NCBI RefSeq assembly: GCF_003989515.1
Contig: NZ_RBLU01000009.1
Coordinates: 1-64,000, forward strand
Source of the DNA: Curtobacterium sp. HSID17257
Lineage (GTDB): Bacteria; Actinomycetota; Actinomycetes; Actinomycetales; Microbacteriaceae
Length of the DNA: 64,000 nt
Direction of reading: 5' to 3'
The notes below the pieces were generated by a model. That model worked only from the letters and a program-made list of their open reading frames with translations. It had not been told where the DNA came from and did not search any database. Position numbers and translations under genes: made by a program. This document shows, piece after piece, positions 3,276 to 9,489 of the stretch. How positions within the stretch are numbered: the stretch's first letter is position 1; the number at the start of each line of letters is the position of its first letter.

Positions 3276-5018
3276 ATGAGCGACGACCGCCGGCAACAGG
3301 TCGAGGACGGCCGCACGACCCTCGGTGTCGAGCTCGGCTCCACCCGGATCAAGGCCGTGCTCGTCGACGAGCAGCTGCGACCGATCGCGAGCGGCTCCCA
3401 CGAGTGGGAGAACGAGTACGTCGACGGCCGCTGGACCTACCCGCTGGTCGCCGTCGAGGCCGGGGTCCGCGCGGCCTACGCCGACCTGGTCGCCGACGTC
3501 GAGCGGCAGTTCGGCGTCCGTCCGACGGCCTTCCGCGCCGCGGGCGTCTCCGCGATGATGCACGGGTACCTGGCGTTCGACGAGGACGGCGAGCTCCTCG
3601 TCCCGTTCCGTACCTGGCGCAACACCTCGACCGGCCCCGCCGCCGAGCGCCTGAGCGCCGCGCTCGACTTCAACGTGCCGCAACGCTGGTCGGTCGCGCA
3701 CCTGTACCAGGCCGTGCTCGACGAGGAACCGCACGTGGCGCAGCTCGCGGGCATCACGACTCTCGCCGGGTACGTGCACCGCATGCTCACGGGCCGCGAC
3801 GTCCTCGGTGTCGGCGACGCCAGCGGCATGTTGCCGATCGAGTCCGGCCCGGTCGAGAGCGCCCCGGGGGAGCCCGGCCGCCGTGACTACGACGCCGCGA
3901 TGCTCGCGACCACGCAGACCCTGCTCGGCGACCACGTCCCCGACCTCCGCGCCCTGCTGCCCGAGGTGCTCGTGGCGGGCGAGGACGCCGGCGTGCTCAC
4001 CCCCGAGGGTGCCGCGTGGCTCGACCCGACCGGCACGCTGCAGCCCGGCATCCCGTTCTGCCCGCCCGAGGGCGACGCGGGCACGGGCATGGTCGCGACG
4101 AACGCCGTCGCCCCGCGCACCGGCAACGTCAGCGTCGGCACGAGCATCTTCGCGATGGTCGTGCTCGAACGGGCGCTCCGGACCCCGCACGAGGAACTCG
4201 ACGTCGTCACGACCCCGGCCGGCGACGCCGTCGCGATGGTGCACTGCAACAACGGCGCGAGCGAGATCGCCGCCTGGGCACGCGTGTTCGGTCGCTTCGC
4301 CGACGCCACGAGCGAGCGGACCGGCAGCCCGTCGGTCGCGGTCGACGACGTCTACGCGACCCTGCTGGCCGAGGCCGCCGACGCCGACCCCGACGCCGGC
4401 GGGCTGCTCTCCTTCAACTACCTGGCGGGCGAACCCGTCACGGGCGTCGAGGACGGCCGTCCGCTGCTCCTCCGCACCCCCGACGCCCGGTTCACCCTGG
4501 GCAACCTGGTCCGCTCCGAGGTCCACGGCGCCTTCGCCACCCTCGCGATCGGCATGGAGGTCCTGCACGGCGAACACGTCGCCGTCGACCGGATGACCGC
4601 GCACGGCGGACTCTTCCGCACGCCGGGTGCCCCGCAGCGCCTGCTCGCCGCGGCGCTCCGCGTGCCGGTCGCCCTCGAGGAGACCGCGGGCGAGGGCGGC
4701 GCCTGGGGCATCGCCGTGCTCGCGGCGTACCTGGAGCACACCGACCGGCCGCTCGAGGACTTCCTCGCCGACACGGTGTTCCGCGGCGACGCGGTGCACG
4801 TCGCCGAGCCCGAGGAGCGCGACGCCCGGGGCTTCCAGGACTACCTGGCCCGGTACCGCGCGGCCCTCCCCGTGCAGGACGTGGCAGCCGCGGCGACCCG
4901 CACCAGCCCGACGACCGATCAGGGCGAGCCGGCGGGGCAGCCCGCACCGACCGACCAGGGCGAGCCGATCGACGTGGTCGAGGCGCGCCTCCAGACCGAA
5001 CAGGAGCCGACCCGATGA
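3276..5018 (+). CDS. araB: Ribulokinase-type FGGY carbohydrate kinase
   Basis: ATP-dependent phosphorylation of L-ribulose to L-ribulose 5-phosphate, second step of L-arabinose catabolism. 580 residues, FGGY fold: N-terminal phosphate-binding stretch GVELGSTRIKAVLVD (about 17-31) and a C-terminal ATPase half beginning around GNVSVGTS (about 283). The ATG at 3276 has GGGAGGA upstream. It overlaps araD by four bases (ATGA) and heads araB-araD-araA behind a double operator. The C-terminal tail (about 545-580) is low-complexity with TDQGEP repeated, from an 18-bp near-duplication at 4914-4931 and 4950-4967. Context, not sequence alone, picks ribulokinase over xylulokinase. Confidence 0.88.
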   Translation: MSDDRRQQVEDGRTTLGVELGSTRIKAVLVDEQLRPIASGSHEWENEYVDGRWTYPLVAVEAGVRAAYADLVADVERQFGVRPTAFRAAGVSAMMHGYLAFDEDGELLVPFRTWRNTSTGPAAERLSAALDFNVPQRWSVAHLYQAVLDEEPHVAQLAGITTLAGYVHRMLTGRDVLGVGDASGMLPIESGPVESAPGEPGRRDYDAAMLATTQTLLGDHVPDLRALLPEVLVAGEDAGVLTPEGAAWLDPTGTLQPGIPFCPPEGDAGTGMVATNAVAPRTGNVSVGTSIFAMVVLERALRTPHEELDVVTTPAGDAVAMVHCNNGASEIAAWARVFGRFADATSERTGSPSVAVDDVYATLLAEAADADPDAGGLLSFNYLAGEPVTGVEDGRPLLLRTPDARFTLGNLVRSEVHGAFATLAIGMEVLHGEHVAVDRMTAHGGLFRTPGAPQRLLAAALRVPVALEETAGEGGAWGIAVLAAYLEHTDRPLEDFLADTVFRGDAVHVAEPEERDARGFQDYLARYRAALPVQDVAAAATRTSPTTDQGEPAGQPAPTDQGEPIDVVEARLQTEQEPTR

Positions 5019-5725
5019 CCGAAGCGCCCACCGACGAGACGAGGCAGGCCGTCGCCGCCGCGCGCGAGCGCGTCGCCGCCCTGCACGGTGAGCTCGTCCG
5101 CTACGGCCTGGTGATCTGGACGGGCGGCAACGTGTCGCAGCGCGTCCCCGGCACCGACCTGTTCGTCATCAAGCCGAGCGGGGTCGCCAGCGACGACCTG
5201 ACCCCCGAGAACCAGGTGGTCTGCACCCTCGACGGCGTCCTCGCCGACGGGTGGGGCAACGCGCACGGCCCGTCGTCCGACACCGCAGCGCACGCCTTCG
5301 TCTACCGGAACATGCCCGAGGTCGGCGGCGTCGTGCACACCCACTCGACGTACGCGACCGCGTGGGCGGCGCGCGCCGAGGAGATCCCGTGCGTGATCAC
5401 GGCGATGGCCGACGAGTTCGGCGGACCGATCCCGGTCGGCCCGTTCGCGATCATCGGCGACGACTCGATCGGCCGCGGCATCGTCGACACCCTCGCGGGC
5501 CACCGGAGCCGCGCCGTGCTCATGCAGAACCACGGGGTCTTCACGATCGGCAAGGACGCGAAGGACGCCGTGAAGGCCGCGGTGATGTGCGAGGACGTCG
5601 CCCGCACCGTGCACATCGCGAAGCAGGGCGGCGAGCTCGTGCCCATCGCCCCCGACGACATCGATCGACTCTTCGATCGCTACCAGAACGTCTACGGACA
5701 GAACCCCGAAGGAGCCATGCGATGA
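5015..5725 (+). CDS. araD: L-ribulose-5-phosphate 4-epimerase
   Basis: Interconverts L-ribulose 5-phosphate and D-xylulose 5-phosphate. 236 residues, class II aldolase/adducin fold, close to the 231 of the Escherichia coli enzyme. Visible motifs: substrate-phosphate loop WTGGNVS near the N-terminus, the zinc pair HTHST at about 108-110 and a third zinc histidine in QNHGVFTIG near 171. It is joined to araB and araA by ATGA overlaps, implying translational coupling. Confidence 0.95.
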
Positions 5726-7248
5726 CGCAGGTGAACCCCCAGGCCACCCTCGACAGCTACGAGGTCTGGTTCCTCACCGGGTCGCAGGGCCTGTACGGCG
5801 AGGAGACCCTGCGCCAGGTCGAGGAGCAGAGCCGCGCCGTGCACGCCGAGCTGGCGCCGCACGTGCCGGTGAAGCTCGTGTGGAAGCCGGTCCTCAAGGA
5901 CGCCGACGGCATCCGCCGCGCGCTGATCGAGGCCAGCGCCGACGACAAGGTCATCGGTGTGACGACCTGGATGCACACGTTCAGCCCGGCGAAGATGTGG
6001 ATCGGCGGCCTGCAGGCGCTCACGAAGCCGCTGCTGCACCTGCACACGCAGGCGAACGTCGCGCTGCCGTGGGGCGACATCGACTTCGACTTCATGAACC
6101 TCAACCAGGCCGCGCACGGCGACCGCGAGTTCGGCTACGCCCTCGCCCGTCTCGGCGTCCGGCACGCGACAGCGGTCGGGCACGTGTCCGACCCGCGCGT
6201 GGTCTCGCGAGTGGAGAACTGGACGCGCGCGGCGGCCGGTGCCGCCGCCGTCCGTGAGCTCAAGCTCACGCGCTTCGGCGACAACATGCGCTACGTCGCC
6301 GTCACCGAGGGCGACAAGACCGAGGCCGAGATCGAGCTCGGCGTGCAGGTGAACACCTGGGCGGTCAACGAGCTGGCCGCAGCGGTGGCCGAGGCCGAAG
6401 CGGACACGGCAGCGGTCGACGAGCTCGTCGCCGTCTACGAGCGCGACTACGACGTCGACGCATCGCTGCGGCGTGACGGCGGTGACCGTCACCAGGCGCT
6501 CCGCGACGGCGCCGCGATCGAGCTCGGCCTCCGTGCACTCCTGGAGCAGAACGGCTCCGCGGCGTTCACCACGAACTTCGAGGACCTCGGCACGCTCAAG
6601 CAGCTGCCCGGCCTGGCGGTGCAGCGGCTCATGGCCGACGGCTACGGGTTCGGCGCCGAGGGCGACTGGAAGACCGCCGTGCTCGTCCGTGCGATGAACG
6701 TCGCGGGCGCGGGCCTCCCGGGTGGTGCCTCGCTGATGGAGGACTACACGTACGACCTCACCCCGGGTGCGGAGAAGATCCTCGGCGCCCACATGCTCGA
6801 GGTCTCGCCGACGCTCACCACGACGAAGCCGACGCTCGAGATCCACCCGCTCGGCATCGGCGGCAAGGACGACCCGGTCCGCCTGGTCTTCACCGCGGAC
6901 GCCGGCGAGGCGGTCGTCGTCGCCCTGTCGGACACCCGTGACGGCTTCCGCCTCACCGCGAACGTCGTCGACGTGGTGCCCCCGACCGAGGCGCTGCCGA
7001 AGCTCCCCGTCGGCCGCGCCGTCTGGGAGCCGCGCCCGTCCTTCCCGGTCGCCGCGGAGGCCTGGCTCACCGCCGGCGCCGCGCACCACACCGTGATGAC
7101 GACCGCCGTCGGCCTGCAGGTCGTCGAGGACCTCGCGACCATGGTCGGCACCGAGTTCCTCGTCATCGACGAGCACACCACGGCCCGCGCGTTCAAGGAC
7201 GAGCTCCGCCTGCAGCAGGCGTGGCACCGTCTGGACCGCGGGTTCTAG
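5722..7248 (+). CDS. araA: L-arabinose isomerase
   Basis: Manganese-dependent isomerisation of L-arabinose to L-ribulose, first step of the pathway. 508 residues, matching the approximately 500 of the family. Recognisable stretches include [16 protein letters not shown] at the N-terminus, [16 protein letters not shown] and GEGDWKT-like sequence (here AEGDWKTA) in the metal/substrate region, and the C-terminal TAGAAHH. Its start overlaps the araD stop (ATGA). Last of the three pathway genes; an alditol oxidase follows after four bases. Confidence 0.97.
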
Positions 7249-7252
7249 GGCC

Positions 7253-8518
7253 GTGACCGTGGCCGCGACGACACGCACCAACTGGGCGGGGAACGTCACC
7301 TACCATGCCTCCGCGCTGGAACGCCCCACCTCGGTGGCGGCCCTGCAGCAGCTCGTCGCGGCCACGCCGCGCCTGACGGCGCTCGGCTCGACGCACTCGT
7401 TCAACGAGATCGCCGACACCGACGCCGTGCAGGTCACGCTCGCCGGCCTGCCTCCGGTGCTCGAGATCGACGCCGACCGGCGCGTGGTGCGGGTCGCGGC
7501 CGGCATGACGCACGCGCAGGTGGCGGCCGGCCTGGAGGCTCGTGGCTGGGCCCTCGCGAACCTCGCCTCCCTGCCGCACATCTCGGTCGCCGGCGCGGTC
7601 GCCACCGGCACGCACGGCTCCGGCGTCCGTAACCCGTCGCTCGCGCAGGCGGTCGTCGGTCTCGAGGTCGTCCGGGCCTCCGGCGACGTCGTCGGGGTCG
7701 ACGCGTCGTCGCCGGACGGCGCCCTCGACGCGCACCGGGTGGCACTCGGCGCGCTCGGCGTCGTCACCGCGGTCGAGCTCGCGATCGAGCCGACGTTCCA
7801 GGTGGCCACGACCGTGCACCTCGACTTGCCGTGGGACGCCGTGACGGCACACTTCGACGCGGTGATGTCGGACGCGTACTCGGTGTCGATGTTCACGTCG
7901 TTCGACGACCGCGGCGCCCGCCAGGTGTGGACGAAGCACCGCGTGGACGAACCCGCACCGTCGGTCGACCTCGTCGCAGTCGGTGCACGCCGAGCCGACG
8001 GTCCGGTGCACCCGGGGGAGAACGACGCCGCGAGCGTGACCGAGCAGGGCGGTGTCCCCGGGCCGTGGGCCGAACGGTTGCCGCACTTCCGGTCGACCTT
8101 CGAGCCGTCCACCGGCGCCGAGATCCAGGCGGAGTACCTGATCCCCGCCGAGCACGCCGTCGCCGCGCTCGAGGCCCTGCGTCCGCTCGAACCGCTCTTC
8201 GCGCCGCTGCTCATCGCGGCCGAGGTCCGCACGGTCGCTGCCGACACGGCCTGGCTGGCGCCCTCGTCGGGACGGCAGTCGGTCGGCCTGCACTTCACGT
8301 TCCGACGGGATGCCGCCGCCGTCGCGGAGACGGTCGAGCGGATCGAGGAGCTCCTCGCGCCGTTCGACCCCCGGCCGCACTGGGGCAAGGTCTCGGCCGC
8401 GAGCGTCGAGCGCCTGCACGAGGCGTACCCGCGGCTGGACGACTTCTCGGCGCTGGCGCGGGACCTCGACCCGACCGGGCGGTTCCGCAACGCGTTCCTG
8501 GCGCGCCTGCTGTCCTGA
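7253..8518 (+). CDS. FAD-dependent alditol oxidase (AldO-like)
   Basis: Likely oxidises a polyol at C1 to an aldose, reducing O2 to H2O2. 421 residues versus 418 for Streptomyces AldO, which it resembles along its length. Vanillyl-alcohol-oxidase fold: GSTHSFNEIA contains the histidine (His48) expected to bind FAD covalently; LPHISVAGAVATGTHGSG follows; the C-terminal half has AEVRTVAAD and HWGKVS with the Glu, Arg and Lys seen in the AldO active site. The GTG start is only four bases after the araA stop, so it is co-transcribed with araBDA and could convert arabinitol-like alditols into substrate for araA. The substrate is inferred. Its last 17 bases are duplicated after the stop. Confidence 0.88.
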   Translation: MTVAATTRTNWAGNVTYHASALERPTSVAALQQLVAATPRLTALGSTHSFNEIADTDAVQVTLAGLPPVLEIDADRRVVRVAAGMTHAQVAAGLEARGWALANLASLPHISVAGAVATGTHGSGVRNPSLAQAVVGLEVVRASGDVVGVDASSPDGALDAHRVALGALGVVTAVELAIEPTFQVATTVHLDLPWDAVTAHFDAVMSDAYSVSMFTSFDDRGARQVWTKHRVDEPAPSVDLVAVGARRADGPVHPGENDAASVTEQGGVPGPWAERLPHFRSTFEPSTGAEIQAEYLIPAEHAVAALEALRPLEPLFAPLLIAAEVRTVAADTAWLAPSSGRQSVGLHFTFRRDAAAVAETVERIEELLAPFDPRPHWGKVSAASVERLHEAYPRLDDFSALARDLDPTGRFRNAFLARLLS

Positions 8519-8535
8519 CGCGCCTGCTGTCCTGA
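8502..8535 (+). repeat. Perfect 17-bp tandem duplication of a gene 3' end including stop
   Basis: CGCGCCTGCTGTCCTGA occurs at 8502-8518 and immediately again at 8519-8535. The first copy encodes the last five residues and stop of the alditol oxidase; the second is outside the gene. Confidence 0.97.
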
Positions 8536-8541
8536 CCGACG

Positions 8542-8578
8542 GGGTGCCCCTCGCCGCTGGTGGCGGCGAGGGGCACCC
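8542..8578. terminator. Strong 16-bp hairpin terminator after the ara operon
   Basis: A perfect 16-bp stem (8542-8557 with 8563-8578) closes a five-base loop. It sits between the plus-strand ara operon and a minus-strand small gene, so it can serve both directions. There is no clear U-run. Confidence 0.8.
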
Positions 8579-8584
8579 GCATCC

Positions 8585-8695
8585 TCAGCCCTTGCGGAGC
8601 AGGTCGACCAGCAGCCTGGTGGTGTTCACGAGCAAGCTCGCGATCCCCAGCCAGAGCGCGTGACGCCTGTTCCGGCCGTCGTCGTCTCGCGACAT
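8585..8695 (-). CDS. 36-residue putative membrane peptide
   Basis: Reads MSRDDDGRNRRHALWLGIAS at the N-terminus, continues with a hydrophobic segment (about 14-32) and ends in Arg-Lys-Gly: a single-helix peptide with a charged N-terminus. An excellent AGGAGGT sits five bases before the ATG at 8695, which is why I prefer this start over longer in-frame options. It is convergent with the ara operon across a shared terminator. A complex foldable element lies 45-125 bases upstream in its likely leader. I do not recognise a family; function unknown. Confidence 0.6.
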   Translation of the reverse strand: MSRDDDGRNRRHALWLGIASLLVNTTRLLVDLLRKG

Positions 8696-8739
8696 CGAGG
8701 ACCTCCTGGTGTCGTCGCCGGCGGACACGAAGAGCTTCG

Positions 8740-8872
8740 AGCCAGGGATGCGAAGCCGAGCGGGCTCGGCTACCATCGGTCCGAGCGCTGAGCTCGGGGA
8801 TGGGTTTGCATCCCTGGCTTTCCACTCGGAAGGCGAACTGAGGCCCGGATCTGTTCCAGCAGATCCGGGCCT
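8740..8872. other. Structured multi-stem element, candidate ncRNA or cis-regulatory leader
   Basis: In the 329-base gap between the small peptide gene and the DUF2510 gene. Outer 12-bp perfect arms (AGCCAGGGATGC at 8740-8751, complement at 8808-8819) enclose two hairpins (8754-8771 and 8781-8797), giving a three-way junction. CATCCC at 8809-8814 can alternatively pair with GGGATG at 8797-8802, which excludes the outer stem. A separate 13-bp hairpin with a six-base loop follows at 8841-8872. The element would fold on either strand. No known class is recognised. Confidence 0.55.
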
Positions 8873-8948
8873 CGCACGTTCACCTGGCCGCGCTCCGGCG
8901 GGTGCGCGGGCGAGGACACCCTACCGAACCGTCCGGTGATGTACTAGT

Positions 8949-8988
8949 GATCGGTCCCGAACAGGGGCTGCCCCGAGCGTGACCGATC
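8949..8988 (+). promoter_or_regulatory. Inverted repeat in the promoter region of the DUF2510 gene
   Basis: GATCGGTC (8949-8956) and GACCGATC (8981-8988) flank an inner AGGGGCTGCCCC-type hairpin (about 8963-8975). A TACGCT -10-like hexamer begins at 8993, so the repeat covers the expected -35 zone. It may be an operator or the terminator of an upstream transcript. Confidence 0.4.
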
Positions 8989-9004
8989 TGGTTACGCTCC
9001 GAGC

Positions 9005-9028
9005 ATGCCTCAGAGAGATGACCTGTGA
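9005..9028 (+). CDS. Seven-codon leader ORF (MPQRDDL) overlapping the DUF2510 start
   Basis: The ATG lies six bases after the -10-like TACGCT, the leaderless geometry seen at many genes here, so it may be the first base of the transcript. Its stop TGA overlaps the GTG start of the next gene (GTGA), a coupling arrangement. Coding function of the peptide itself is unlikely; translation through it may deliver ribosomes to the downstream GTG, which lacks a strong Shine-Dalgarno. Confidence 0.35.
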   Translation: MPQRDDL

Positions 9029-9489
9029 CTCTCCCCCTTGCGGGCTGGTACCCGGACCCGCAAGACCAGGCCCGGCTTCGTTGGTGGGACGGCCAACGGT
9101 GGGGCGATCCCGCTCCACAGCCAGTGGTGCCCTCGTTCGGGAGGTTCGTGGAGGCCTCGCCGCGCCCACCCGCTCCATCCGAGTACCGAGGGATCGCAAT
9201 GCCCGGGCGTGCGACCGGACGCGGGGCGAGGATCGCCCGTGATCGTGCCACGCGGGCAGCGAATCCCTACGGGTACGCCGGTCTCGTGCTGTCCCTGATC
9301 GCCTTCATCGTGAACCTGTTGGCGATCCCCAGCCTGCTCGGGATCGTCTTCGGCGCGATCGGCCTCGTGCGAGCTGGGCAGTTGGTCGGGGAGCGGGTCA
9401 CTGGCTTCGGCGTCTCGCTCGCCGCCGTCATCCTCGGCCTCGTCAGTGGTGCGCTCTTCTTCGTCCGGCTGGCAGAGGTGTTCGGCTGA
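9025..9489 (+). CDS. DUF2510/DUF4190-like small membrane protein
   Basis: 154 residues. The N-terminus carries the DUF2510 signature (AGWYPDP then RWWDGQRW, about 6-27), a tryptophan-rich cytosolic motif common in actinobacteria. A Pro/Arg-rich linker leads to two hydrophobic helices (about 88-120 and 128-150) separated by GRAGQLVGERVTG-type sequence, as in DUF4190 proteins. Role unknown; such proteins are thought to be membrane-associated accessory factors. The GTG start is chosen because it begins the DUF2510 motif and overlaps the leader ORF. Confidence 0.75.
   Translation: MTLPLAGWYPDPQDQARLRWWDGQRWGDPAPQPVVPSFGRFVEASPRPPAPSEYRGIAMPGRATGRGARIARDRATRAANPYGYAGLVLSLIAFIVNLLAIPSLLGIVFGAIGLVRAGQLVGERVTGFGVSLAAVILGLVSGALFFVRLAEVFG

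Follow-up and report, generated by a model that had tools for sequence, protein, structure and literature searches.

A conserved two-state mRNA leader and a candidate antisense RNA at a small-peptide locus of Curtobacterium, a possible type I toxin-antitoxin module

Several described type I toxin-antitoxin systems provide a template against which the locus reported here can be read. In hok/sok of plasmid R1, according to PMC8167048, a small membrane peptide is opposed by a cis antisense RNA directed against the mRNA leader, the full-length mRNA has a metastable 5' hairpin and stays inactive while its 5' end is in contact with a remote region, processing is needed before that mRNA can be either translated or bound by the antisense RNA, and copies occur on plasmid and chromosome. 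The aapA3/IsoA3 system of Helicobacter pylori, as PMC6733600 describes it, forms successive metastable hairpins during transcription and a long-distance contact, with its ribosome-binding site (RBS) covered and compensatory changes across strains. In tisB/istR and zorO/orzO of E. coli, antisense action falls on a long structured leader far upstream of the start codon, and repression involves RNase III (PMC8167048 and PMC3919570). A 2025 paper names Proteobacteria, Firmicutes and Tenericutes as the only phyla with type I systems up to then and proposes a further one in a cyanobacterium, msoT1/msoA1 of Microcystis (PMC12390103). The literature we searched, partly available as excerpts and with subscription journals and T1TAdb outside its scope, yielded no type I system in actinobacteria or in Curtobacterium; the excerpts mention a toxin-antitoxin system on the Curtobacterium plasmid pCff1, type not given, report type II toxin-antitoxin systems in Bifidobacterium, and include one survey of marine toxin-antitoxin systems.

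A small membrane-type peptide, a cis antisense RNA against its leader acting far upstream of the start codon, a full-length mRNA made inert through its 5' end, metastable hairpins formed during transcription, an RBS that can be covered, compensatory changes, plasmid and chromosomal copies and a host outside the usual phyla all have observed or predicted counterparts in a locus of Curtobacterium sp. HSID17257. We put the probability that this is a stand-alone peptide-RNA module working like a type I toxin-antitoxin locus at roughly two in three on the sequence comparisons set out below, and read the locus as most probably a new peptide-RNA family that operates in the manner of hok/sok or tisB/istR.

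The locus lies in a stretch of 64,000 nucleotides of contig NZ_RBLU01000009.1, called the window below. The original prediction, made from these letters, described a three-way-junction element with two alternative pairings in the leader of a 36-residue peptide, and when the bases were re-read its pairings proved correct: perfect 12-nt arms, AGCCAGGGATGC at 8740-8751 and GCATCCCTGGCT at 8808-8819, enclose hairpins at 8754-8761/8764-8771 and 8781-8786/8792-8797, and CATCCC at 8809-8814 can pair with GGGATG at either 8745-8750 or 8797-8802. A separate hairpin, credited with 13 bp, is present with 14 perfect pairs (8840-8853/8860-8873). The element is indeed the leader of a 36-residue peptide with a good RBS, but both the frame and its AGGAGG are on the minus strand, so the leader runs from about 8911 down to 8696. 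The parts of the sense transcript, followed by those of the opposite strand, are these:

8918-8923, minus strand: sense -10 box TAGGGT, which would start the RNA near 8911
8888-8909, minus strand: P1, the 5'-terminal hairpin of the sense RNA, with CGCCGG as its loop (8895-8900 on the plus strand)
8840-8873, either strand: P2, hairpin in the sense leader and proposed 3' end/terminator of the antisense RNA
8821-8830, minus strand: near-invariant UCC-GAGU-GGA hairpin (UCC-ACUC-GGA on the plus strand), helix 1 of the alignment, 98.9% of cells paired
8808-8819, minus strand: A, the arm with two partners
8797-8802, minus strand: A', local partner of A
8781-8797, minus strand: P4, junction hairpin and also 5' hairpin of the proposed antisense RNA
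8754-8771, minus strand: P5, junction hairpin in the sense RNA only; helix 5, 7 of 8 pairs with two-sided changes
8740-8751, minus strand: A'', distal partner of A, closing the three-way junction (P3)
8709-8735, minus strand: hairpin beside the RBS, GTGTC...GACAC, with CCGGCG in its loop (plus strand 8716-8721)
8702-8707, minus strand: RBS AGGAGG, read directly
8585-8695, minus strand: 36-aa peptide MSRDDDGRNRRHALWLGIASLLVNTTRLLVDLLRKG, a candidate toxin with a single predicted helix, based on the frame, 61 loci in the genus and a structure model
8628-8641, minus strand: hairpin G(CUUG)C inside the peptide frame, based on third-codon-position conservation
8542-8578, either strand: 16-bp hairpin after the frame, read directly and present in aligned homologs; proposed end of the sense mRNA
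8771-8776, plus strand: antisense -10 box TACCAT, abutting the junction arm at the foot of P5
8749-8754, plus strand: candidate antisense -35 TGCGAA, 16 nt from the -10 box; weak, with no TTGACA-type match
8783-8880, plus strand: proposed antisense RNA (candidate antitoxin) of about 100 nt, with predicted ends

Upstream of the sense -10 box, a GAAYATCA-like stretch recurs at varying distance in many homologs and could be a regulator site. Imperfect inverted repeats (8949-8966/8971-8988 and 8975-8984/8990-8999) also lie just upstream of the sense promoter, by the start of a DUF2510 gene.

The peptide is conserved in both length and sequence. The frame has 36 or 37 codons in 63 of 65 distinct versions, residues D4, R11, W15, A19, R27 and R34 are identical in all 55 frames compared, and the N-terminus is charged. 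A single-sequence model of the peptide predicts a helix over residues 5-35 (mean pLDDT 84.1), which would make it a short hydrophobic peptide with one membrane-type helix, as expected of a type I toxin. Twenty members of the peptide family matched no family in Pfam, NCBIfam or PHROG (best chance matches at E 0.021, 0.03 and 0.095), and among those collections the peptide has no sequence relation to the named type I families (hok, ldr, ibs, fst, txpA and others). Ka/Ks is mildly below 1, with a median of 0.76 and 73% of 1446 pairs under 1, a ratio whose Ks is lowered by restraint on third positions at codons 17-24. These codons (window 8624-8647, minus strand) are near-fixed at third positions in the 55 distinct frames, with GCG kept in 55 of 55, the leucine codon TTG in 52, CTC in 52 and GTG in 53. 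As judged from this codon pattern, a constraint at the RNA level is acting within the peptide frame at codons 17-24.

The structure of the leader is real and conserved. The stretch 8700-8880, folded as plus-strand RNA, reaches -105.3 kcal/mol; shuffled versions average -76.8 (sd 4.45; z -6.40), and 0 of 200 come as low. A plain alignment of 26 leaders with RNAalifold missed P3 and P5, so a model was made from a closer subset of leaders with the structure named by hand from the window fold, and the others were realigned onto it. In the resulting 63-leader alignment, which is fitted to the structure model and leans towards that structure, pairing holds in 91.3% of 2243 cells. Its covariation score of 0.342 compares with 0.131 when shuffled (0 of 500 as high) and with 0.024-0.052 when partners are displaced along the sequence. 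The comparison of relatives for which the original prediction had called found the three-way junction covarying as RNA, with two-sided changes at 23 of 36 pairs. Helices 6 and 7, in the region of the RBS, are paired in 96.4% and 97.2% of cells; helix 6 is the covering helix, with two-sided changes at 3 of its 4 pairs across the family, and the upstream arm of the hairpin beside the RBS, GCUCUUC, is able to cover GGAG.

Because the alignment was fitted to the model, an alignment-free comparison served as a check, in which each arm was paired either with its own partner or with those of other groups, across 22 groups of leaders less than about 80% alike. Own partners were better for A:A'' (-21.45 against -15.80 kcal/mol), for A:A' (-10.01 against -8.37), for P5 (-15.78 against -8.60) and for P2 (-26.83 against -18.36), with 0 of 5000 permutations as good in each case. 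P4 and the hairpin beside the RBS gave no such signal (1606 and 1220 of 5000 permutations as good), since their sequences barely vary.

These results also bear on whether the element is a palindromic repeat at the level of DNA, or a small mobile element, that merely chances to precede an open reading frame. Strong inverted repeats and the presence of several copies per genome at different places are what such an element would show, but the arms covary among family members rather than holding one sequence, the genome of the window itself has a single copy, and order, spacing and peptide frame are kept, aligned homologs running in the same succession from P1, P2, UCC-GAGU-GGA, A, A', P4, P5 and A'' to the RBS hairpin, the frame and the 16-bp hairpin. 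We consider this explanation very improbable.

The mutually exclusive pairing that had been proposed for the leader is also supported, both pairings being backed by covariation. In all 22 groups, A contains 3 to 7 bases that could pair with A' as well as with A'', so the exclusive pairing is a kept feature of the family and not an accident of the window. Prefix folding of the window mRNA from its proposed start, a thermodynamic prediction and not a kinetic one, gives A:A' a probability of 1.00 at 125, 135, 145 and 165 nt and 0.99 at 155 nt, and then gives A:A'' a probability of 1.00 at 172 nt, once A'' has been made. In the window folds, the change from A' to A'' neither frees nor covers the RBS, and in neither state is a partner exchanged with it.

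If these two states were those of a ligand riboswitch or an attenuator, as originally suggested, or of a translational riboswitch or thermosensor whose opposite-strand TANNNT is a by-product of conserved junction residues, then one would expect a covarying junction, two states and a hairpin able to cover the RBS, all of which are present, and in the sense RNA an A..TA does occur at the base of P5. The glutamine riboswitch of the Downstream-peptide type is likewise a structured leader of a very small peptide gene. However, the sole two-state element swaps A' for A'' and leaves the RBS untouched, which argues against a simple riboswitch platform, and the switching arms themselves vary in sequence. 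Nor does a class or a pathway suggest itself: the window has no Rfam match at gathering score, in keeping with the earlier observation that no known RNA class is recognised, and a relaxed search of 8560-8960 gave four sub-threshold matches, the best at 24.8 bits against a cut-off of 78. Flanking sequences fall into 17 clusters for 66 upstream flanks and 21 for 65 downstream flanks, some of which may be one site grown apart, with no fixed partner gene and no single pathway adjoining. Of the features found, an antisense promoter box is kept most strictly, and the helices within the proposed antisense RNA tolerate G-U pairs of the antisense strand. We regard a riboswitch or thermosensor as improbable.

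In the reading as a type I-like module, closure of the RBS would depend in part on a conserved long-range contact. In 60 of the 62 parsed leaders, every base of a six-base stretch in the loop of P1 finds a partner in the loop next to the RBS: 56 have CGCCGG:CCGGCG, three leaders of one group have CACCGG:CCGGUG, and one has a G-U pair. In the other two leaders, five of the six pairs form. The distant L134 has GGUCGG:CCGACC. The main evidence for the contact is these two matched loop changes, since the common version may be kept for other reasons. The parsed set is 62 of 65 distinct leaders, excluding L127 (no leader), L132 (an insert) and L134 (too distant). In the fold of the complete sense transcript of the window copy, four bases of the AGGAGG hexamer have high unpaired probabilities (0.78-0.82), so that cover there would depend on the hairpin together with the loop contact, which the program cannot score jointly.

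Evidence for a transcript on the opposite strand comes from comparing the two candidate promoter boxes. The sense -10 box is TANNNT in 50 of 65 aligned leaders; the remaining 15 comprise three alignment gaps, three shifted or unclear cases and nine changed boxes, eight of them with a usable peptide frame. The antisense box is TANNNT in 61 of 62 parsed leaders, the exception being L129 (TGCACT), in which the peptide frame is altered. Positions 1, 2 and 6 of the box are the same in all 48 distinct stretches and positions 3-5 vary; most leaders have a TG some 16 nt before the box, and the box of L132 is TACACT. Every parsed locus with a usable peptide frame keeps TANNNT (61 of 61, counting L058, whose frame runs past the usual stop), against 4 of 9 loci in which the peptide is broken or gone, a comparison that ignores kinship. 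The nine are those whose box region survives (L011, where the region is deleted, is left out): the box is kept in L026, L152, L153 and L182 and changed in L129, L146, L180, L181 and L183. It is the altered frame of L129 that places it among the nine; counted with the intact loci instead, it would make the comparison 61 of 62 against 4 of 8. A box that is stricter than the sense -10 box and relaxed when the peptide goes is the pattern expected of an antitoxin. A scan of 8500-9050 for consensus sigma-70 promoters or T-run terminators found none on either strand.

A G-U pair on one strand is an A-C mismatch on the other, and wobbles can thus be assigned to the strand on which they would pair. With one leader per group, the counts of sense and antisense G-U pairs are 1 and 9 for A:A', 9 and 15 for P2, 2 and 3 for P4, 6 and 7 for P3, 20 and 12 for P5, and 11 and 5 for the hairpin beside the RBS; in these small numbers, helices within the proposed antisense RNA lean towards the antisense strand and those outside it towards the sense strand. 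Over all distinct arms, P3 has 11 sense and 27 antisense wobbles, which is unexpected given that A'' lies outside the proposed antisense RNA and may be explained by A being common to A:A'. The antisense RNA of the window is predicted to fold into four successive hairpins, with the UCC-ACUC-GGA loop presented. Antisense RNAs often recognise their targets through U-turn loops.

The original prediction had also offered an independent plus-strand RNA ended by the hairpin at 8840-8873, and the conserved TANNNT box is consistent with such a transcript. It had set this against the leader as an alternative; each of the two finds support, and the choice between them falls away if both strands are used.

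How these parts may work together can be outlined as follows. From the plus-strand -10 box, an antisense RNA about 100 nt long would be transcribed, with its end at the hairpin at 8840-8873; it would fold into P4, A:A', UCC-ACUC-GGA and P2 and could pair with the 5'-proximal half of the leader. While the mRNA is being made, A:A' would form first, and A:A'' would then close the junction. The junction and the 5' loop contact would hold the RBS shut and partly hide the antisense target, and a processed or nascent mRNA would be accessible to ribosome and antisense RNA alike. In growing cells the antisense RNA would prevail, probably through cleavage of the duplex. If the antisense RNA dropped, the peptide would be made and would act on the membrane.

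The module is patchily distributed within its genus. Searched at the DNA level, 25 of 59 relatives had matches, as did the window's own genome, which has one copy; all of these are Curtobacterium. The peptide profile finds 61 loci in 43 of 66 genus genomes, with one to three each, leaving 23 of the 66 with no peptide match, and the final leader model finds 68 leaders in 46 of 66. Sixty loci are common to both lists, which leaves eight leaders unaccompanied by a peptide match and a single peptide, L127 (G010:C1:834169), unaccompanied by a leader. No other intact peptide frame that was found lacks one; what lies upstream of L127 is unrelated sequence, and its genome has two further complete copies.

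Outside Curtobacterium, the peptide occurs in 3 of 7 genomes of a second, Frondihabitans-type genus, Frondihabitans sucicola among them. The leader model matched 12 of 398 genomes of the family in three genera; the match in the third genus, L147 (E 0.0011), is taken as a chance one, motif and peptide being absent on inspection. Weak peptide matches outside the two genera (E 0.001-0.01) lie within long frames. Among 297 sampled genomes of the order, the only match was the window's own; phages gave no match, and three stretches of viral contigs fit a sequence pattern, none encoding a relative. One copy is on a plasmid of Curtobacterium sp. MCLR17_054 (L135, 2700-3120 of NZ_CP126264.1), where it is flanked by genes for a MobF relaxase and an IS5 transposase; a tRNA-like stretch adjoins it, and the incomplete gene table for that plasmid lists no gene under the module.

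Next to the module in the window are genes for a DUF2510 protein and for an FAD-linked oxidase of D-arabinono-lactone oxidase type. The region 3276-8518 carries L-arabinose-type sugar genes (an isomerase with three AraA Pfam domains) and then the FAD-linked oxidase, whose 3' end borders the module.

Decayed copies are found at L152, L153, L180, L181, L182, L183, L026, L129, L146 and L011, where the leader is whole or partial and the peptide is deleted or out of frame. Genome G034 contains two decayed leaders, both with an intact antisense box, and no peptide match.

The distribution is relevant to whether the peptide is a toxin at all. With the same antisense-controlled anatomy, it might instead be a non-toxic small membrane protein, acting in stress or signalling or modulating a membrane complex, and kept at a low level. 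The RNA evidence would be identical in that case, the role as a toxin being a putative one, and the invariant R27, R34 and W15 and the charged N-terminus would fit a binding role. Patchy presence, one to three copies per genome in many contexts, a copy on a plasmid and leaders that persist after the peptide is lost look instead like an addiction-type element, and we think a non-toxic peptide unlikely.

Read as a type I-like module, the locus still differs in several respects from the systems it resembles. No sequence relation to hok/sok was found, and the contact here joins the 5' loop to a loop beside the RBS, whereas in hok/sok the 5' end meets the 3' end; the three-way junction here also holds the antisense promoter, and a non-systematic look identified no upstream overlapping frame of the mok kind. 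In aapA3/IsoA3 the metastable hairpins cover the RBS, which A:A' of Curtobacterium does not (PMC6733600). IstR and OrzO are described in PMC8167048 and PMC3919570 as separate or short-complementarity RNAs, while the proposed Curtobacterium RNA would be fully antisense to the leader. The msoT1/msoA1 locus, according to PMC12390103, belongs to a cyanobacterium, has two predicted helices and was tested in E. coli, whereas the Curtobacterium locus is a candidate from sequence comparison.

A more specific proposal, which we judge to be evenly balanced, is that Curtobacterium and the Frondihabitans-type genus share a type I toxin-antitoxin family native to actinobacteria, in which the antitoxin promoter would lie within a junction arm of the toxin mRNA, the 5' loop and the loop beside the RBS would form a lock, and the antitoxin half would outlive the toxin at decayed loci. 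The case suggests that such systems have been missed because their peptides are unannotated and their RNAs absent from Rfam. The more than 60 natural variants of such a family, with their several states of decay and contacts that covary, would allow direct tests of how mRNA folding and antisense binding are timed against each other.
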